A stretch of DNA of 64,000 bases from Arthrobacter sp. NEB 688. GTDB taxonomy: Bacteria; Actinomycetota; Actinomycetes; Actinomycetales; Dermatophilaceae. The notes under the pieces are model-generated. The model was not told where the DNA came from, ran no database searches, and was given only the letters and a program-made list of their open reading frames with translations. Every line of letters starts with the position of its first letter. The first letter of the stretch is position 1. The DNA lies in NCBI RefSeq assembly GCF_013201035.1, contig NZ_CP053707.1, forward strand, positions 620,001-684,000, read 5' to 3'. Both the position numbers and the translations under genes were made by a program. Shown here piece by piece: positions 1,427 to 62,676 of the stretch.

Positions 1427-2860
1427 TCAGCCCTTCGTGTGCTCCCGCCAGGTGCGCTCGAACGGCAGCCGCCACGTGAACGGCGCGATGAGCTGGTGGA
1501 TCTGGTTCGGGCCCCACGTGCCCTGCGCGTAGGGGTGCACCGGCGGCGGGTTGTCGAGGATCGGCTGGCTGATCTCCCAGAGCCGCTCGATGCCCGTGGC
1601 CGACGTGAAGAGGGTCCGGTCGCCGCGGGCCGCGTCGTAGATGAGCCGCTCGTAGGCCTCGAGCACCGCGCCCGCCCAGCTCGTCTCCTGCATCGCGAAC
1701 TGCATCGAGAGCTTGTCGAGGCGGAAGCCGGGGCCGGGGCGCTTGCCGTAGAACGAGAGCGACATCCGCGACTTGTCGGCGAGGTCGAAGGTCAGGTGGT
1801 CCGGACCCTGGTCCCCGACGCCCGAGCCCTTGGGGAACATCGACTGCGGGGGCTCCTTGAAGGCGATGGAGATGATCCGGGCGCCCTCGGCCATCCGCTT
1901 GCCGGTCCGCAGGTAGAACGGCACCCCGGCCCAGCGCCAGTTGTCGACGAAGCACTTGAGGGCGACGAAGGTCTCGGTGTCGGACTCCGGGGCCACCCCG
2001 GGCTCCTGGTGGTAGCCGGTGTACTGCCCGCGCACGACGTCGGTCGGCATGATCGGCTGCATCGAGCGGAAGACCTTGTTCTTCTCGCGGCTGATGGCGG
2101 CCGGCTCGAGCGCGGTCGGGGGCTCCATCGCCGTGAAGGCGAGGATCTGGAACAGGTGCGTGACGACCATGTCGCGGTAGGCGCCGGTCGCCTCGTAGAA
2201 GTCGGCGCGCTGGCTGAGGCCGAGGGTCTCGGGGACGTCGATCTGGACGTGCGAGATGTTGTTGCGGTGCCAGATCGGCTCGAACAGCCCGTTGGCGAAG
2301 CGGAACGCGAGGATGTTCTGCGCCGGCTCCTTGCCGAGGAAGTGGTCGATCCGGAAGATCTGCTCCTCGTCGAAGACCTCGTGCAGCTGCGCGTTGAGCG
2401 CGACGGCGCTGGCGTGGTCGTGGCCGAAGGGCTTCTCCATGACGACGCGGCTGCGCTCGACGAGGCGCGCGTCGGCGATCGTCTGCACGGCCGCGAGCGC
2501 GGCCTTCGGCGGCACCGCGAGGTAGTGCAGGCGCAGCTCGACCTCGCCGGGCAGCTGCTTCTCGGCGCGGGCGACCGCGTCGGCGAGCGCCTGCGGGCCG
2601 GCGGACAGCGGCACGTAGTCGATGCGGTCGACGAAGGCCTTCCAGTCGGCCTCGTCGACCTCACGCGTGCTGTGCTCGCGGATGGCGGTGTGCGCGAAGT
2701 CGCGGAACTCGTCGGGGCTCTTCTCGTCGAGCGAGGTCCCGACGACGCGCAGGTCGTCGAGGAGGCGCGACTGGAAGAGGTGGAGCAGGCCGGGGATCAG
2801 CTTGCGCTGCGCGAGGTCGCCGGTGGCGCCGAACAGGATGACGGTGGTGGGCGCGGTCAT
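1427..2860 (-). CDS. zwf: Glucose-6-phosphate 1-dehydrogenase
   Basis: Oxidises glucose 6-phosphate to 6-phosphogluconolactone with NAD(P)+, the entry step of the oxidative pentose phosphate pathway. From ATG 2860 the protein has 477 residues: the Rossmann motif VILFGATGDLAQRK (residues 7-20), MEKPFGHD (about 141-148) and the substrate signature RIDHFLGKE (170-178). It stands alone, without the opcA, tal, tkt or pgl genes usually linked to the main actinobacterial zwf, so it may be a second copy. An in-frame ATG at 2923 lies eight bases after a TATATT box and would add 21 Gly/Arg-rich residues. The 2860 start gives the usual family N-terminus, and GGGTGGGG precedes it. Confidence 0.93.
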   Translation of the reverse strand: MTAPTTVILFGATGDLAQRKLIPGLLHLFQSRLLDDLRVVGTSLDEKSPDEFRDFAHTAIREHSTREVDEADWKAFVDRIDYVPLSAGPQALADAVARAEKQLPGEVELRLHYLAVPPKAALAAVQTIADARLVERSRVVMEKPFGHDHASAVALNAQLHEVFDEEQIFRIDHFLGKEPAQNILAFRFANGLFEPIWHRNNISHVQIDVPETLGLSQRADFYEATGAYRDMVVTHLFQILAFTAMEPPTALEPAAISREKNKVFRSMQPIMPTDVVRGQYTGYHQEPGVAPESDTETFVALKCFVDNWRWAGVPFYLRTGKRMAEGARIISIAFKEPPQSMFPKGSGVGDQGPDHLTFDLADKSRMSLSFYGKRPGPGFRLDKLSMQFAMQETSWAGAVLEAYERLIYDAARGDRTLFTSATGIERLWEISQPILDNPPPVHPYAQGTWGPNQIHQLIAPFTWRLPFERTWREHTKG

Positions 2861-2931
2861 GGCCCCACCCTGTCCCCCACGGGGCGTGGACGCCAGTCCC
2901 CCAGCCCGTTTGCGGATTTCCATTGGTGCGG

Positions 2932-2937
2932 AATATA
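2932..2937 (-). promoter_or_regulatory. Strong -10 box (TATATT) of zwf
   Basis: TATATT on the minus strand stands out in GC-rich surroundings. Eight bases downstream is ATG 2923, in frame with zwf, so either a leaderless extended form or a transcript with a roughly 65-base leader to ATG 2860 is possible. Confidence 0.45.
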
Positions 2938-2947
2938 TTTCGTCACC

Positions 2948-2987
2948 AGGGGAGTTGTCCCCTCCAGCCGCCGACGGAGGCCGTCGG
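2948..2987 (-). terminator. Tandem small hairpins after the FTR1 gene
   Basis: Two stem-loops lie between the iron permease gene (stop at 3053) and zwf: AGGGGA/TCCCCT with a GTTG loop at 2948-2963, and CCGACG/CGTCGG at 2971-2987. No T-run follows, so termination is only a suggestion. Confidence 0.25.
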
Positions 2988-3052
2988 GGGCGTCCTGACC
3001 CGGGGGCGGGTCCGCGTCGGCGCAGGGGCCCGCGTGGCCTCGCCCCCCTGGG

Positions 3053-3907
3053 TCAGGCCCGCACCGCCGTGCGCTCCGCGCCGAGCCTCGACCCGCCGGC
3101 TGCCGGGCGCGCCGGCCGCAGGAACAGGGGCAGCACGACCCCGACGTACCCGACCCAGGCGGCGACCTGGAGCACGGTCATCGCCGGCGTCACGTTGAGG
3201 ACGCCGCGCAGGAGCACGGCGTACCAGGCGCCGGGGTCGACCGCGCCGGAGACGTCGAAGGCCGGCAGGTCCTCGCCCGGCAGGACGCCGGCCTCCTGCA
3301 GCTCGTGCAGGCCGTAGGCGAGGATGCCCGCCGCGACGAGCACGAGCGCGACCCCGGTCCAGCGGAAGAACCGTGCGAGGTCGATGCGCAGCGCGCCGCG
3401 GTAGACGAGCACCCCGAGGAGCGCGGCGCCGAGCAGGCCGAGCGCCCAGCCGAGCAGGGGCGCCGTGTCGCCGTCGCCCGCGCCCTGCACGGTGGCGTAG
3501 GCGAAGACCGCGGTCTCGAGGCCCTCGCGCCCCACGCCGAGGAAGCCGACGAGCGCGACCGCGAGCGGCCCGAGGGACAGGGCCCGGTCCAGGCGCCCGC
3601 GGAGCTCGCCGGCCATCCCGCGCGCCGCGGAGCGCATCCAGAAGACCATGGCCGTGACGAGCCCGACGGCGGCGATGCTCGCCGCGCCGCCCACCGCCTC
3701 GCCGGTCGCCTCGGGCAGCTCGCGGGTCCCGAGGGTGAGCAGCGCCCCGAGCGCGGCGGACACGACGACCGCCGCCGCGACCCCGGCCCACACCCACGGC
3801 AGGGCCCACCGGCGGTCGGTGCGGACGAGGAAGGCGAGGAGGACGACGACGACCAGCGCGGCCTCGAGTCCCTCGCGGAGCCCGATGAGGGCGGTGCTGA
3901 CGACCAT
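3053..3907 (-). CDS. FTR1/EfeU-type iron permease
   Basis: A 284-residue polytopic membrane protein of the high-affinity iron permease family. Both REGLE motifs are visible: one at residues 11-15 in the first helix and one in FLGVGREGLETAVF near the middle. In this family these glutamates carry iron through the membrane. About seven hydrophobic segments follow the expected order. EfeO and EfeB partners are not adjacent, so it either works alone or its partners are elsewhere. ATG 3907 is preferred because GGGAG lies upstream and the protein then begins MVVSTALIGLREGLE, as family members do. Confidence 0.88.
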   Translation of the reverse strand: MVVSTALIGLREGLEAALVVVVLLAFLVRTDRRWALPWVWAGVAAAVVVSAALGALLTLGTRELPEATGEAVGGAASIAAVGLVTAMVFWMRSAARGMAGELRGRLDRALSLGPLAVALVGFLGVGREGLETAVFAYATVQGAGDGDTAPLLGWALGLLGAALLGVLVYRGALRIDLARFFRWTGVALVLVAAGILAYGLHELQEAGVLPGEDLPAFDVSGAVDPGAWYAVLLRGVLNVTPAMTVLQVAAWVGYVGVVLPLFLRPARPAAGGSRLGAERTAVRA

Positions 3908-4063
3908 GGCTGCTCCCGTGCGACGTGCCGACACCGACCCGCGCAGACAACCGCGCCGGCGGGCGGGCGGTCAAAGGGCGTTCCGCGGCGGGCCACCGAC
4001 CGGGGGTGGAGCGGTACCGGAGGGGGCGTCGGCGGCCTCGGCGACCTCGACGCGCCCTGGGGC

Positions 4064-5443
4064 TCAGCGGCCCCGGGGCGTCGCGAGGGCGACCTCCTCG
4101 GCGGTCGGGGTCCGGCGCTCGCGGGCCTCGGGTGGCAGGCAGTCGACGATCGCCGCCATGATCCGCTCCGTGTCGGCCGCGGGCGTGCCCCCGAGCCCCT
4201 CGACCGGCTCCCCCACCCGCACCCGCACGGTCGGCGGGTCGGTGAGGGCGAGCATCCGCGGGGCCGGCGAGCTGCGCGGCCACACCTTCTCGCTGCCCCA
4301 GATGCCGAAGGGGATGACCGGGGCGCCGGTCGCGGCCGCGAGGCGCGCGGCGCCGGTGCGGCCCTTGAGGACCGGGTCGTAGAAGCGCTCGCCGCGCGGG
4401 ATGGTGCCCTGCGGCAGCAGGCAGACGAGCTCGCCGGCCTCGAGGGCGACGGCCGCGGTCTCGAAGGACTCCTGGCCGGCGCCGCCGCGGTCGACGGCGA
4501 TGCCCCCGAGCGCGGTCGCGAGCGCCCCGACGACCGGGACGTCGAAGAGCTCCTTCTTCGCGAGGACCCGTCCGGTGCGCCCGGTGCGGCGCATCATCTG
4601 GATCATCGCCGGGACGTCGAAGTAGCTGCGGTGGTTGCCGACGAGGATGGCCGGCCCGGTCCGGGGGACGTTCTCGGTGCCGGCCACGTCGAAGCGCGCG
4701 TAGGGCGTGAGCAGCGGGGGGCTGGCGAGGAACAGCAGCCGCTGGAGCTCGACCCCGACGACCGGGATCTTGACCACTCCGGGCGAGACGTCGAAGTGCA
4801 CGATGGGCCACCCCCGGGCGAGCGCGTAGACGGTGAGCCGCGGGTCGGGGTTGACCGCGGCCGGGGTGCCGACCGCCGACAGCAGCGGCAGGTCGTAGAT
4901 GGAGTCGGAGTAGGCGAAGGACTCGGCGAGGTCGATGTCCTCGCGCGCCGCCCACGCCCGCACGGCGTCGAGCTTGCCGCGCGACCAGACGAACGGGCCC
5001 TCGAGGTCGCCGCTGAAGCGCCCGTCCTCGGTCAGGGCGTACCGGGTGGCGACGACGTGGTCGACGCCGAGGCGCTCGGCGAGCGGGCGGACCAGGTGCT
5101 CGGGGGTCGTCGTCGCGAGGACCACCGGCCGCCCGGCCGCCCGGTGCTGCTCGATGAGCGCCAGCGCGAAGGGGTGGACGACGGCCGAGATGGTCTCCGC
5201 GGCCGCGGTGGCGGCCTCGTCGAAGGCGTCGCCGGCGCGGCCGCGGGCCACGAGGGTCGCCTGCCGGGCCAGCGCGATGCTCGGCAGCGTCTCGCCGATG
5301 AGGTCGAAGGCCTTGAAGAGCAGCCCCTCGCCGGGCAGCCGGCGGGTCACGACGCCGAGGTCGTACATCGCCCGCGAGAGCAGGGGGCCGGTCCCTCCCT
5401 GCAGGAGGGTGCGGTCGAGGTCGAAGATCGCCGCGCCAGCCAT
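4064..5443 (-). CDS. HAD phosphatase fused to PlsC-type 1-acylglycerol-3-phosphate acyltransferase
   Basis: A 459-residue two-domain protein. Residues 1-215 are a HAD-IB-type phosphatase with nucleophile DLDRT (8-12), the TTTPEHL loop (111-117) and the acidic YSDSIYDLP motif (178-186). Residues 245-420 are a PlsC-type acyltransferase with catalytic NHRSYFD (270-276) and LPQGT (343-347) in place of the common PEGT. HAD-PlsC fusions are known in actinobacteria and are thought to couple phospholipid acylation with dephosphorylation; the order of reactions here is inferred. It is divergent from the patatin gene with only 33 bases between starts. Confidence 0.9.
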   Translation of the reverse strand: MAGAAIFDLDRTLLQGGTGPLLSRAMYDLGVVTRRLPGEGLLFKAFDLIGETLPSIALARQATLVARGRAGDAFDEAATAAAETISAVVHPFALALIEQHRAAGRPVVLATTTPEHLVRPLAERLGVDHVVATRYALTEDGRFSGDLEGPFVWSRGKLDAVRAWAAREDIDLAESFAYSDSIYDLPLLSAVGTPAAVNPDPRLTVYALARGWPIVHFDVSPGVVKIPVVGVELQRLLFLASPPLLTPYARFDVAGTENVPRTGPAILVGNHRSYFDVPAMIQMMRRTGRTGRVLAKKELFDVPVVGALATALGGIAVDRGGAGQESFETAAVALEAGELVCLLPQGTIPRGERFYDPVLKGRTGAARLAAATGAPVIPFGIWGSEKVWPRSSPAPRMLALTDPPTVRVRVGEPVEGLGGTPAADTERIMAAIVDCLPPEARERRTPTAEEVALATPRGR

Positions 5444-57896: not shown

Positions 57897-58471
57897 GCAC
57901 CACCCCGCCGCCGTGGGAGCCGCCGCTGGCCGGGTCGGAGGCCGAGCAGCTGCTCGGGTCCCTCGACCGGATGCGCGCCACGTTCCGCTACAAGGTCGAC
58001 GGCCTCGACGCTGAGGGGCTGCGCGCGACCATCCCGTCGTCCACCCTCAGCCTGGCCGCGCTGCTCAAGCACCTCGCGTCGGTCGAGGACTTCTACTCGA
58101 CCCAACGCCTCTCCGGCACACCGATGCCCGACGTCTGGGACGACAACGGCTGGGACGACGAGGACGACTGGGAGATGACGTCCGCGGCGTCCGACCCGCC
58201 GGAGGACCTCTACGCCCTCTACGACGGCGCGGTCGAGCGCAACCGGGCGCGCGTGCGCGAGGCCGTCGCCGAGCGAGGGCTCGGCGGCGCGGCACACGCG
58301 TCCGACGGCGAGGGCCGGCACGCGAGCATCCGGCGCCTGCTGTTCGACCTGCTCGAGGAGTACGGCCGGCACACCGGGCACGCCGACCTGCTCCGCGAGG
58401 CGGTGGACGGCCGGGTCGGCGAGGACCCGTCGGCGGACTGGCACCTCCCGGAGGCGTGGACGGGCGCCTGA
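57893..58471 (+). CDS. DinB/DUF664 family protein
   Basis: A 192-residue four-helix protein of the DinB-like superfamily, often mycothiol-dependent in actinobacteria. TLSLAALLKHLASVEDFY carries the first metal-ligand histidine and EEYGRHTGHADLLREAVDG the other two (HxxxH). Start GTG overlaps the DLH stop. The function is likely detoxification or S-transfer. Confidence 0.9.
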   Translation: MSTTPPPWEPPLAGSEAEQLLGSLDRMRATFRYKVDGLDAEGLRATIPSSTLSLAALLKHLASVEDFYSTQRLSGTPMPDVWDDNGWDDEDDWEMTSAASDPPEDLYALYDGAVERNRARVREAVAERGLGGAAHASDGEGRHASIRRLLFDLLEEYGRHTGHADLLREAVDGRVGEDPSADWHLPEAWTGA

Positions 58472-58533
58472 CCCGGCGGTTTCCTTCGCGGACGAATCCT
58501 TTTGCGCGAGAGCACTTTAGATGCTTCGGACCC

Positions 58534-58562
58534 TTGTCGTTCGATCGCGTGTTCGATAGGAT
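58534..58562 (+). promoter_or_regulatory. Promoter of the HNH gene (TTGTCG-17-TAGGAT)
   Basis: TTGTCG (58534-58539), 17 bases, TAGGAT (58557-58562). The stretch 58483-58562 is unusually AT-rich for this window. The box covers the in-frame ATG at 58561, so translation must start at 58588, which is preceded by a GGGGAG site. Confidence 0.6.
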
Positions 58563-58587
58563 GCCAGCACGAGGGGAGGGGGAGCGC

Positions 58588-59997
58588 ATGGTCACCACCG
58601 GCACGGCACAGGACCTGCTCGACGCGACGCGCCGGGCGCACGATGCCCTCGCCCCCGTGCGTCCGTCGGGGGTCCGCACCGGCACCCGCGACGAGTGGGT
58701 CGAGGCCCTGGGCGCCCTCCAGTCCCTCCTCAACGAGGCGACGGCCCTCCAAGACGAGGTCGTCGTCGAGCTGGCGGCCCTCGAGCCGGAGTGGGCCGAG
58801 GACGGCACCGTCCGCGATGTCCGTCGGGCGCTCGACGCACCGGCGATCGTCTCCGGCGTCCTGTGCCTCTCGGCCGTCGCCGCCGAGCAGCGGGTGCGGG
58901 ACGCCGTGCGCCGGGCCGCGGACGGCCCCGAGGGCACGCCCACGAGCACCGGTCTCGGCGGCCTGCACACCGCCATGACGCAGGGCCGCCTCGACGGCCA
59001 CCGTGCACACGTCGTCAGCGGCGAGCTCGAGGAGTGCCCGGCCGAGGTCCGCGCGACCGTCGTGGCCGCCCTCGACCCGTGGCTCGACCGCGAGGACGGG
59101 TCGCGGCTGCGTCGGCGGGTACGGCGGATGCTCGCGGCCATCGACCCCGACCTGCTCCGGCAGCGCGCCCGGCGGGCCCGCGAGGCATCGGGGCTGCGGC
59201 GCTGGGTCGACGAGCCCGGTGTCGACACCTGGCTCGGCACCTTCCCCAGCGAGGAGGCGTGCGGCGCCTGGGCCGCGGTCGGCGCGCTCGCGCAGCGCTA
59301 CCTCGAGGACGGCGTCTGCGCGCGCATCGACCGGGCGCGTGCCAAGGCCCTGACCGACCTCGTGCTGCAGCAGTCCACCGTCACCACGACGGTGGTCGAG
59401 CACCACGCCCACCCGCTGACCGGGGCCCTCGTCGACGACGGCGACGCCCTCGCCACGCCCGCGTACCGCCCGGGGGCGGCCCTGGCCGGCCTCGTCCGGG
59501 CGCGCGACCGGCACTGCCGCTTCCCCGGCTGCTCGGTGGCCGCCCGCTGGTGCGACCTCGACCACGTGGTGCCGTGGCCGGCCGGCCCGACGAGCGCCGC
59601 CAACCTCGTCTGCCTCTGCCGCCGCCACCACCGCACGAAGCAGCGACCCGGATGGCGCACACTGCTCGCGCCGGACGGGACCTACACCGTCACCGACCCC
59701 ACCGGACGGGTCCGCAGCACCGACCCGCCCGACCATCGCGCCGACCCCGCCCTGAGCGACCTCCCCGACCCCGACCACTCACCGCCGCCGGCCTGCCCAC
59801 CGCGGGTCGTCGTCCCCGACGGCCCGCACAGCGACCTCGAGCACGCGCTCGAGTCGCGGCTCGGCGGCGAGCGCTGGGGTCGGGCGGCCTGCCGCGTCGA
59901 GGTGCACCGCCCGGCGCGAGTCTCCACGGTCGTGACGACCGACGACCACCCACGGCGGCCGCGGCCGACGGGGTGGCCCGACACCCCGCCCCTCTGA
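58588..59997 (+). CDS. DUF222 / HNH endonuclease domain protein
   Basis: A 469-residue protein. DUF222 occupies roughly residues 20-290 (ALQSLLNEATALQDEVVVEL, LLRQRARRAREASGLRRWVD), followed by an HNH domain with CRFPGCSVAARWCDLDHVVPW and NLVCLCRRHHRTKQ. Actinobacteria carry many paralogues; biological role is unclear, some are thought to be mobile-intron or defence remnants. The C-terminal 110 residues are Pro/Asp-rich and probably disordered. Confidence 0.9.
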   Translation: MVTTGTAQDLLDATRRAHDALAPVRPSGVRTGTRDEWVEALGALQSLLNEATALQDEVVVELAALEPEWAEDGTVRDVRRALDAPAIVSGVLCLSAVAAEQRVRDAVRRAADGPEGTPTSTGLGGLHTAMTQGRLDGHRAHVVSGELEECPAEVRATVVAALDPWLDREDGSRLRRRVRRMLAAIDPDLLRQRARRAREASGLRRWVDEPGVDTWLGTFPSEEACGAWAAVGALAQRYLEDGVCARIDRARAKALTDLVLQQSTVTTTVVEHHAHPLTGALVDDGDALATPAYRPGAALAGLVRARDRHCRFPGCSVAARWCDLDHVVPWPAGPTSAANLVCLCRRHHRTKQRPGWRTLLAPDGTYTVTDPTGRVRSTDPPDHRADPALSDLPDPDHSPPPACPPRVVVPDGPHSDLEHALESRLGGERWGRAACRVEVHRPARVSTVVTTDDHPRRPRPTGWPDTPPL

Positions 59998-60000
59998 GGG

Positions 60001-61221
60001 TCAGGACCGGGGCGCCCCGACGGCCCGCCGCCACGCGGTGAAGGACTGCACGGGGACGCTCCGCGGCCGGACCAGCCAGGGGTAGGGATGCACCTCGACG
60101 GGGTCGACGGCGGTCGCCCGACGGGCGAACCCCGGCACCGGCGCGTGGGTGACGGCGAGGCGGCGGCCGGCGAGCTCCTCGGCGACGTCCCCCAGCCGCA
60201 CCTCGAGCGGCCGTCGGGTCGCGAGGTCGCCGAGCGTCTCGGCGAGGAAGACCAGCCGCTTGCCGGACAGCCGCAGCCCCGCGAGCAACGGCTCGTCGAG
60301 GACGAACACCGCCGGGCGGTCGGGGTCGGCGGCGAGCGCGGGGTCGGCGTCGCCCAGCGACTCGGCGGTCAGCCACACCTCCTCGGCGCCACGGCCCTCG
60401 ACCTCGGCCGGCCCGGCGGGGACGGGGCCGCGGCCGAGCGGGGGCCCGTCGGCCGGTGCGCCGACCGACTCCTCCGGCCACCCCTGCACAGGGCACGCCT
60501 GCTCGAGAGGGCACGACCGGCACAGGGACGGCGCCCGCTTCTCGACCTGCCAGCGGCTGAACCCGTACGGACGACCGGAGCCGGTGCCGACCGTCCACTG
60601 CCACCCGAGCCGGTTGGCCGCCCGCGAGCCGTCGAGCAGGTGCGCGAAGAAGACGTCCTCGCCGACCCGCCAGTCCGCACCGGCCCGCACGGCCCACTGG
60701 GACGCCAGCCACATCCGGGTCTGGTTGACGAGCCAGCCGTCCTCGACGAGCTCGGCCGTCGTCGCGGCCATGCACGCCATCTCGTCGGGCCACGGGGTCG
60801 GCCAGCGGTCCGGGGTCCGGGGCTGCTCCCGCCGCAGCGGGCGACCCAGGGCGCGGCCGACGCGGGCGTAGAGGTGGCGGGCGTACTCCTGCCAGAGCAG
60901 CTCGTCGCGGTACTTCGTGCGGTCGCGCGCCGGGGCGTCGGCGACGGCGTCCCACGCCTCGCGCAGCGTCACGAGGTTGTGGCGGATGTAGGGGGACATC
61001 CGGCTGGCGCCGCGGCGCTCCGCCGGGAGGACGGTGCTGCGCCGCGAGGCGTACCCGCTGACGTCGAGCGTCGCGAGCGCGGTGTCGGCGGCGGTCTGCC
61101 CACCGACGTGGCCGCCCCGCCGGGTGCCGTCGGCGCCCTCGCGGACGAGGTGGCCGAGGTGCTCGCGGACCCAGGCGACCGGGTCGTCACCGCCGGGCGG
61201 CGGCGGGGTGGGGAGACGCAT
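60001..61221 (-). CDS. Cryptochrome/photolyase-like protein with FAD domain before the antenna domain
   Basis: A 406-residue protein. Residues 40-232 match the photolyase FAD-binding domain: SRMSPYIRH (73-81), ELLWQEYAR (107-115), GWLVNQTRMWLASQ (162-175), DWRVGEDVFFAHLLDG (183-198), WQWTVGTGSGRPY (207-219). Cys150, Cys234, Cys237 and Cys243 resemble the four iron-sulfur ligands of FeS photolyases, with CRSCPLEQACPVQGW as the landmark. Residues 281-380 resemble the normally N-terminal alpha/beta domain: VWLTAESLGDADPALAADP, AVFVLDEPLLAGLRLSGKR, LVFLAETLGDL. The domain order is therefore reversed. Expected to bind FAD and use light for DNA repair or signalling. TAGAAC lies five bases before ATG 61221. 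Confidence 0.82.
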   Translation of the reverse strand: MRLPTPPPPGGDDPVAWVREHLGHLVREGADGTRRGGHVGGQTAADTALATLDVSGYASRRSTVLPAERRGASRMSPYIRHNLVTLREAWDAVADAPARDRTKYRDELLWQEYARHLYARVGRALGRPLRREQPRTPDRWPTPWPDEMACMAATTAELVEDGWLVNQTRMWLASQWAVRAGADWRVGEDVFFAHLLDGSRAANRLGWQWTVGTGSGRPYGFSRWQVEKRAPSLCRSCPLEQACPVQGWPEESVGAPADGPPLGRGPVPAGPAEVEGRGAEEVWLTAESLGDADPALAADPDRPAVFVLDEPLLAGLRLSGKRLVFLAETLGDLATRRPLEVRLGDVAEELAGRRLAVTHAPVPGFARRATAVDPVEVHPYPWLVRPRSVPVQSFTAWRRAVGAPRS

Positions 61222-61226
61222 GCTCC

Positions 61227-61232
61227 GTTCTA
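61227..61232 (-). promoter_or_regulatory. -10 box (TAGAAC) of the photolyase-like gene
   Basis: TAGAAC on the minus strand with five bases to ATG 61221, close to the photolyase-like gene's start and consistent with a leaderless mRNA. Confidence 0.35.
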
Positions 61233-61261
61233 CCCCGCCGCCGACGCGGAACCGCTGTGGC

Positions 61262-62521
61262 TCAGCACTTCTCCCAGTAGCCCGTCGAGGTCTGCCTGAG
61301 CGTCGAGCTGTAGAAGGTGTTGGAGAGACCGAGGTTCTGGTTCGAGCCGGTCGCGTAGGCGTAGCCGCCGGACTGGTAGGCCCGGCCGGCCGTGACGTGC
61401 GCGTAGTTCGTCGCCGTGACGCAGGTCGGCGTCGCGGTGGCGGTCGGGGTGGGCGTGGGCGTGGGAGAAGCCGTCGGGGACGTCGTCGGCGTCGCCGTCG
61501 GGGTGGGCGTGGGCCCGGTGCCCCCGCCGTCGAGGCCGAAGAACCGGACGTCCTGGGAGGCGGCGCACACCGAGGTGTCGATGAAGTACGCGCCCGCCGT
61601 GCCGCACTGCGCCGGGCCCGTCCCGGGGTCCACCGCGGTGCCGTGCGCCATCCCCTGGACCCGGGTGACGCGGACGCGCCCCGCGAAGTCCTCGACGGTC
61701 ACGCCCGACGCGACCGTGCCCGTGCTCGTCGGCGTCTGCGAGACCCCCGCGACGTTCGTGAACTGGTCGCGCAGCTCGCCGGCGTTCATCGGGGCCACCG
61801 TCGTGTCGGAGGTCCCCTGCCAGATGGACACGAGCGGGCGCGGGCCGGTGTACCCGGGGGAGGCGGCGCGGACGAGGTCGCCCCATGCGGACGGGCTCTT
61901 GTCGACGCCGGGGTTCATGCACGAGAACGCGTCGAGCGTGCTGCTCGCGCAGCGGTAGGGCAGGCCGGCGTTGATGGAGCCGCCCGCGTAGGTGTCGGGG
62001 TAGGTCGCGAGCATCACGGCGGTCATCGCCGCGCCGGCGGACAGGCCGGTCACGTACACCCGCGAGGAGTCCAGGCCGTACGAGGACACCGCGAAGTCGG
62101 TCATCTGCTTGATGCTCAGCGCCTCGCCCTGGCCGCGCGCCGTGTCGGACGCCTGGAACCAGTTGAAGCACGAGCTGGAGTTGTTGCTGCTGCTCTGCTG
62201 CGCGAGCACGAGGGCGAAGCCGTGGCGGTCGGCCATCTCGCGCCAGCCGCTGTTCGCGAAGTACGTCGACGCGTTCTGGGTGCAGCCGTGCAGCTCGACG
62301 ACCAGCGGTGCGCCGGACGGCAGCCCATCAGGCCGGTAGCTGTACATCGTGAGGGCCCCGGGGTTGCTGCCGAACCCGGTCACCTGGGTCAGCCCCGCCG
62401 CACGCGCGGGGGGCGAGGTCGTGACGACGAGCCCGACGGCCCCGAGGACGGCGAGCGCCACGAGGAGGACCAGGCTGCGCCCGAGGGCGTTCGCGCGGGC
62501 GGTGGACGGTGTGGACGTCAT
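61262..62521 (-). CDS. Secreted PHB depolymerase-family esterase
   Basis: A 419-residue secreted enzyme. Signal peptide about 1-42 (ends PPARAA). The hydrolase has the oxyanion motif VVELHGCTQNA, nucleophile GLSAGAAMT, and MAHGTAVDPG with the histidine. A Thr/Pro repeat linker (about 330-360) leads to a C-terminal 55-residue domain with two cysteines (TPTCVTATNYAH; YWEKC). Probably degrades extracellular polyesters such as polyhydroxyalkanoates. GGAGG lies before ATG 62521. Confidence 0.9.
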   Translation of the reverse strand: MTSTPSTARANALGRSLVLLVALAVLGAVGLVVTTSPPARAAGLTQVTGFGSNPGALTMYSYRPDGLPSGAPLVVELHGCTQNASTYFANSGWREMADRHGFALVLAQQSSSNNSSSCFNWFQASDTARGQGEALSIKQMTDFAVSSYGLDSSRVYVTGLSAGAAMTAVMLATYPDTYAGGSINAGLPYRCASSTLDAFSCMNPGVDKSPSAWGDLVRAASPGYTGPRPLVSIWQGTSDTTVAPMNAGELRDQFTNVAGVSQTPTSTGTVASGVTVEDFAGRVRVTRVQGMAHGTAVDPGTGPAQCGTAGAYFIDTSVCAASQDVRFFGLDGGGTGPTPTPTATPTTSPTASPTPTPTPTATATPTCVTATNYAHVTAGRAYQSGGYAYATGSNQNLGLSNTFYSSTLRQTSTGYWEKC

Positions 62522-62676
62522 CGGTCTGCCTCCGTTTCCCGGCGGCTCCGTCGACGCCGGACCGGGACACCGTGCCACCCCGGTCGGCCCCCGGCGGTGG
62601 CGCGCGACCCCAGGACGAGCGGTCGCGGCTGGGCCCGTGCGACATGGTGCGCGACGACACCGCCGCACCCGGGCCG

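Follow-up and report, generated by a model that had tools for sequence, protein, structure and literature searches.

Photolyase-like proteins with an FAD domain at the N-terminus and a photolyase domain at the C-terminus have been described in Synechococcus/Cyanobium, where, in the excerpted text of PMC9426592 (2022), this arrangement is given for Phr6 and for Phr4/Phr5, the latter being encoded as adjacent ORFs. In the same excerpts, Phr4 has the cysteines C169, C254, C257, and C263, from which its authors predicted Phr4/Phr5 as a (6-4) photolyase; the phr4 mutant is sensitive to UV-C, not to UV-B, and phr4/phr5 protects E. coli from UV-C. Phr7 is described there as having a C-terminal Z-domain, a type that other work has established as a photolyase for CPDs in single-stranded DNA (PMC9426592).

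An inverted domain topology is also attributed to the NewPHL/SPL proteins in a passage of PMC13274461 that cites Emmerich et al. 2020, and a Trp dyad is reported for the NewPHL of Dinoroseobacter in the excerpted text of PMC8948257. In passages that cite Xu et al. 2021, the short photolyase-like proteins (SPLs) are described as having no N-terminal α/β domain and as similar to class I/III CPD photolyases (PMC9649867), as the proposed origin of the photolyase/cryptochrome family (PMC9498864), and as one of eight groups (PMC9178010); in papers of this kind, SPLs are either named as CPD repair enzymes or likened to CPD photolyases. A sequence-only reading made earlier of the DNA studied here had held that the α/β domain comes first in known photolyases, which needs correction in view of the reversed-order Phr4/Phr5 and Phr6 (PMC9426592) and NewPHL/SPL (PMC13274461) in the excerpts cited above; the architecture that it had taken as novel was published for reversed Fe-S photolyases in 2022 (PMC9426592).

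The gene, its FAD-binding domain and its cysteines

The gene lies at 60001..61221 on the minus strand of the window, which is the whole 64,000-nucleotide stretch of Arthrobacter sp. NEB 688 DNA that was analysed; the host genome is a single contig of 4.08 Mb. From the ORF list and the relatives, the gene was assigned to a reversed-order Fe-S short photolyase-like protein of 406 amino acids, with ATG as the start codon of the 406-codon ORF; the strand had been absent from the earlier reading. A chance ORF was ruled out by the best 80 of 288 relatives, nearly all of which match most of the query. An antisense ORF of 403 amino acids (plus strand, 60088-61299) overlaps the photolyase gene almost fully, and ORFs in this antisense frame form a cluster across all 80 loci of the relatives. 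Since the photolyase match sits on the minus strand, this antisense frame is probably a by-product of codon conservation in GC-rich DNA.

The N-terminal FAD-binding (catalytic) domain covers residues from about 42 to 232 (60526..61098, minus strand), as determined from Pfam, PDB sequence matches, and hhalign. Pfam FAD_binding_7 matches residues 107-215 with an E-value of 1.7e-10, above the family cut-off, and the closest PDB structures found with the single sequence are class I photolyases (1tez, 1owl), which match residues 55-215 with a best E-value of 2.1e-15; the FAD domain therefore comes first, as had been proposed. The profile search of the PDB gave E 1e-22 for class I CPD photolyases, whereas PhrB was far weaker (E 4.7e-4), and the hhalign comparison of residues 1-250 with class I FAD domains gave 99.5% (E 3.9e-23). 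The Pfam search gave no PF04244 match in the protein, and no DPRP-type domain precedes the FAD domain, which begins near residue 42; membership of the PhrB type was ruled out by the missing PF04244 match. A phage search returned six matching records, all within residues 68-219 and thus in the FAD domain only.

The E. coli residues were mapped onto the window protein with residue numbers taken from the 1dnp alignment, and the catalytic roles are those of the E. coli enzyme. Conservation was counted over the 47 sequences of alignment A1, in which the window protein is aligned with 46 of the 80 relatives fetched. Invariant positions (47/47) are those corresponding to E. coli E274, W277, N341, R344, W359, D372, N378, W382, and W384, and the one corresponding to M345, M170, is conserved in 45/47. 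The class I CPD set is thus present, with E107, W110, N166, and W209 in all 47 sequences and M170 in 45. Four checked positions differ from the E. coli enzyme: R278 is replaced by Q111 in 46/47, R342 by Q167 in 47/47, D374 by S199 in 47/47, and N379 by R204 in 40/47, with G or L otherwise. On balance, the residues at the checked positions favour CPD repair. In the alignment with PDB sequences, W306 is aligned to Gln132 of the window protein, and the electron-transfer chain therefore looks like a Trp dyad.

Four cysteines are invariant in the window protein and its 46 relatives (47/47), at the positions given by the sequence-only reading and with a spacing of 84/3/6: Cys150 (60772..60774), which is the equivalent of the PhrB-type Fe-S ligand 1 and lies 12 residues before a G[W/Y] motif, Cys234 (60520..60522), Cys237 (60511..60513), and Cys243 (60493..60495), the last three being predicted as Fe-S ligands 2, 3, and 4, with Cys243 within a CP motif (all minus strand). 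At every other position of the window protein, Cys occurs in at most 17% of the alignment rows. Four actinobacterial FeS-BCPs (L119, L120, L123, L125) have a Cys 12 residues before G[W/Y]AHHI, followed by CxxC...CP, and the window protein shares this arrangement, which supports the resemblance to the PhrB pattern noticed earlier. In the excerpted text of PMC12082625, the cluster ligands of the Caulobacter enzyme are C349, C437, C440, and C453, so that the last two ligands are 13 residues apart, compared with 6 in the window protein.

The host genome also encodes a class I-type photolyase and a PhrB-like gene. In the latter (DPRP plus FAD; L003/L115, near 1012490-1013782), EWRDDWDALYW replaces the CxxC...CP motif, and L114 is likewise without this motif; directly upstream of L003/L115, an ORF resembles an FAD-dependent oxidoreductase by eye. 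A replacement of cry-DASH was also considered and rejected: none of the 296 Actinomycetota genomes scored above the NCBIfam cut-off for DASH, and the control gave 1/14, so that the absence of cry-DASH does not discriminate.

The C-terminal antenna-type domain

An interdomain linker of residues about 246-280 (60382..60486, minus strand), variable in alignment A1, is followed by a C-terminal α/β domain of the antenna type at residues about 281-401 (60019..60381, minus strand), which was delimited using hhalign, structure models, and Foldseek. The hhalign comparison of the 47 C-terminal domains with 19 class I N-terminal domains gave 94.7% with an E-value of 5.7e-8 and 33% identity over 70 columns, and the alignment is in register from the first strand on. 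Here, the antenna set was obtained with a motif that picked 20 of 30 class I loci, 19 of which were long enough; among the PF04244 loci, the motif picked 6 of 12. As controls, the reversed antenna alignment gave 0.3%, 100 column shuffles gave at most 5.4%, and crossed-domain comparisons gave 0.2-0.4%. With 29 antenna sequences, the values were 95.8% and E 7.3e-9 over 73 columns (at most 5.2% in 60 shuffles), and the four Deinococcus C-terminal domains matched the antenna domain with 97.2% and E 3.3e-11 over 134 columns (at most 1.3% in 60 shuffles). In the actinobacterial proteins, where the domain has some 120 residues, the match is firm only over roughly the initial 70, and the second half was matched only with a relaxed threshold. 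The relation of residues 281-380 to the antenna domain, which the sequence-only reading had proposed, is thus borne out, and an unrelated C-terminal half, named there as the outcome against it, was not seen using hhalign or Foldseek.

Direct searches gave a few matches in both directions. HMM searches were performed over the loci from L126 on, with matches taken at E 1e-3 or better; the C-terminal HMM of the family matched the N-terminal part of 2/14 ordinary-order photolyases (L152, E 8.7e-7; L154, E 7.8e-5), and the class I antenna HMM matched the C-terminus of one of three fused Deinococcus proteins (L164, E 1.6e-4), so that no direct match at this threshold was found in the other 12 and 2 proteins, respectively. 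The C-terminal half has no DNA_photolyase match in Pfam even at E 10 and no match in NCBIfam, and its profile gave three matches in the PDB sequence search at E 0.64-2.4, with no photolyases among them.

The AlphaFold2 model of the whole chain, computed from the 47 sequences, has a mean pLDDT of 93.7 and a pTM of 0.92, with five short strands modelled in the C-terminal domain. As judged by the pTM of the whole chain, a C-terminal half failing to fold against the FAD domain, which had been the other outcome named in advance, was not seen. With the full chain as the query of a sequential Foldseek search, 47 matches were obtained at E 0.001 or better, all of which were photolyases or cryptochromes; the alignments cover 218-285 columns with query TM-scores of 0.31-0.49, as expected if one domain alone can align in order. 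The isolated C-terminal domain was modelled with a pLDDT of 90.6, and its first 14 Foldseek matches are photolyase/cryptochrome chains at E 0.005 to 0.08, with none at E 0.001 or better; photolyases and cryptochromes make up 17 of the 50 matches listed. The sequence searches returned no solved structure of a reversed-order member.

Relatives, genomic neighbourhood and tree

The best 80 of 288 relatives, which were kept, have best-segment identities of 58-94%, and most of them match nearly the whole query; two are partial (L047, residues 13-360; L051, residues 63-401). The nearest relative among these 80 is from Phycicoccus jejuensis, with 94% identity, and rhodococcal relatives are about 70% identical to the window protein. 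Some SPLs are reported to have four cysteines. The SPL of Rhodococcus fascians was reportedly purified with FAD, Fe-S, and CPD repair by Xu et al. 2021. The search for members of the same domain order suggested in the sequence-only reading was fruitful, as both halves occur in the same order in all 46 aligned relatives. A full-length member with an E-value of 1.5e-154 or better was found in at least 20 of 296 Actinomycetota genomes, which is perhaps a lower bound as six candidates per genome were scored even where there were more; in 18 of these 20 member-bearing genomes, this search returned another match as well.

Besides the antisense frame, no neighbour family occurs in more than 12 of the 80 loci within flanks of 4 kb or less, and an assignment of function from neighbours was accordingly ruled out. 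By eye, an ORF at about 61262-62530 (minus strand) resembles a secreted PHB-depolymerase/esterase with a Thr/Pro-rich linker, and an ORF at 58456-59997 (plus strand) a DUF222/HNH-type protein.

The reversed order is also found in three Deinococcus proteins from plasmid records (L157, L158, L164). In the plasmid of Deinococcus sp. QL22 (L156), the FAD/Fe-S gene (2845-3618) and the antenna-type gene (3615-4136) are separate with an ATGA overlap, and this split differs from the cyanobacterial phr4/phr5 split as described in the excerpts of PMC9426592. The linker of the fused Deinococcus proteins is missing from the split QL22 genes. Each of the four Deinococcus reversed-order sequences has all four cysteines, spaced 85/3/4 in QL22 and 85/3/7 in the other three.

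The FAD domain also lies near the N-terminus in seven alphaproteobacterial proteins (L159-L162, L167, L170, L171) and in two Persicobacter proteins (L165, L166), and CxxC occurs in none of these nine, which are presumably NewPHLs. Against the antenna profile, the alphaproteobacterial and Bacteroidota C-terminal domains gave no match (9.8% and 1.0%, respectively), and hhalign of the C-terminal domain of the window family against the seven alphaproteobacterial ones gave 0.2%. In the fetched stretches of six CxxC-free reversed-order loci (L159, L170, and L171 from Asticcacaulis, L161 from Ruegeria, L162 from Peteryoungia, and L167 from Novosphingobium), an AarF/UbiB-kinase gene is present in five and a DUF3429 gene in four; in the three Asticcacaulis loci, an overlapping gene for an FAD/NAD(P)-binding protein precedes the reversed-order gene. 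The Persicobacter (Bacteroidota) genes, at about 2857-4071 in L165 and about 2734-4077 in L166, encode a C-terminal part ending in SFFA[FY]WKK and adjoin a second photolyase-like gene of ordinary order.

The tree was determined from 49 FAD domains with the cysteines masked, using the prokaryotic (6-4) group as the outgroup and our own group labels. A weakly supported branch (83/58) separates the four reversed groups from the remaining sequences, and a tree holding the actinobacterial and Deinococcus members together was not rejected (p-AU 0.317). The window protein lies away from the prokaryotic (6-4) group, that group being the outgroup.

Proposed function and comparison with known systems

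It is likely that the gene product is a reversed-order Fe-S short photolyase-like (SPL/Phr6-type) enzyme, which probably repairs CPDs. In the proposed mechanism, the N-terminal helical domain would bind FAD and take the cyclobutane pyrimidine dimer into the active site, where, under blue light, FADH− would give an electron to split the dimer. A [4Fe-4S] cluster would be held by the four cysteines in the FAD domain, and the C-terminal antenna-type domain may pack on the FAD domain and either close the FAD site or carry an antenna pigment. The occupancy by FAD and Fe-S and the CPD rather than (6-4) substrate are inferred by us, as are a possible preference for single-stranded substrates, a possible antenna pigment, and the exact docking of the C-terminal domain.

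A (6-4) photolyase, in which the Fe-S cluster marks a PhrB-like function and the antenna domain has moved, is unlikely. The cysteines do lie at PhrB-equivalent positions, four checked active-site positions are unlike those of E. coli CPD photolyase, and the excerpts of PMC9426592 contain the same prediction for Phr4/Phr5 and Phr6 as well as the UV-C-, not UV-B-sensitive phr4 mutant. However, the residues central to catalysis match the class I CPD set (E107, W110, N166, M170, W209), the nearest solved structures belong to class I CPD photolyases with PhrB far weaker, and the FAD tree sets the protein apart from the prokaryotic (6-4) group, even if this group was used as the outgroup; SPLs are, moreover, called CPD repair enzymes or CPD photolyase-like in the consulted passages of papers citing Xu et al. 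2021. The sequence-only reading had offered either an antenna-rearranged repair enzyme or a light-responsive flavoprotein, of which the former fits better.

A cryptochrome-like light sensor without repair activity is very unlikely, even considering that the class I-type and PhrB-like genes of the host would make repair partly redundant, since most of the checked repair residues are conserved, no signalling partner is visible (no neighbour family in more than 12/80 loci, with flanks of 4 kb or less), and published relatives, in the excerpts of PMC9426592, confer UV-C protection or, in the case of the Z-domain type, carry out DNA repair. It is also very unlikely that the protein is a fusion with an unrelated Rossmann-like domain at its C-terminus instead of a rearranged photolyase. 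The missing Pfam match at E 10, the three non-photolyase matches in the PDB profile search, and the shortness of the domain, whose second half aligns weakly, would suit such a fusion; they are opposed by the in-register hhalign matches of 94.7-97.2% for the actinobacterial and Deinococcus domains against at most 5.4% in shuffles, and by the Foldseek result for the isolated domain.

The reversed Fe-S photolyase architecture has been published in fused and split forms, and the window gene is a further member; taken alone, it adds one case from the Actinomycetota to a described type of enzyme. Through the comparison, the Fe-S SPLs are linked by sequence to the family of antenna domains. It also has a bearing on the idea of SPLs as a root of the photolyases that lacks the antenna domain, and this is its new part, the inverted SPL/NewPHL topology being already in print. 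Tentatively, SPLs may not be antenna-less: in Actinomycetota and Deinococcus, the Fe-S SPLs bear a recognisable C-terminal antenna domain, and rooting the family on an antenna-less SPL would therefore lose its main structural argument. The group may then have arisen once, by gene splitting and re-fusion in reverse, with the two-gene forms (QL22, Phr4/Phr5) as intermediates or later breaks and with loss of the cysteines in the alphaproteobacterial and Bacteroidota branches. The in-register antenna match of the actinobacterial SPLs and the weakened argument for an antenna-less ancestor are unstated in the open-licence literature searched and may well be known.

Compared by description in the consulted excerpts, Phr6 and Phr4/Phr5 share with the window protein the domain order and the four Fe-S cysteines, with a spacing of 85/3/6 versus 84/3/6; however, they are cyanobacterial and usually encoded by two genes, whereas the window protein is one actinobacterial chain with a shortened C-terminal domain. 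The NewPHLs, as described, are similar in having the FAD domain first, the second domain last, and a Trp dyad instead of a triad; the nine fetched alphaproteobacterial and Persicobacter reversed proteins differ from the window family in being without CxxC. As in SPLs, the window protein has no N-terminal α/β domain and a class I/III-like FAD domain, although the name SPL rests on the absent N-terminal domain and the window protein carries such a domain at its C-terminus. The FeS-BCPs or prokaryotic (6-4) photolyases (PhrB, CryB) agree in the positions of the four cysteines; PhrB, however, has an N-terminal DPRP domain, and the main catalytic residues of the window protein are class I-like. With the class I CPD photolyases, the window protein shares the FAD-domain sequence, the main catalytic residues, and the type of antenna domain, whereas class I enzymes have the opposite domain order and are not characterised by the four Fe-S cysteines. 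The comparison sharpens the published disagreement on whether the substrate is the CPD or the (6-4) photoproduct.
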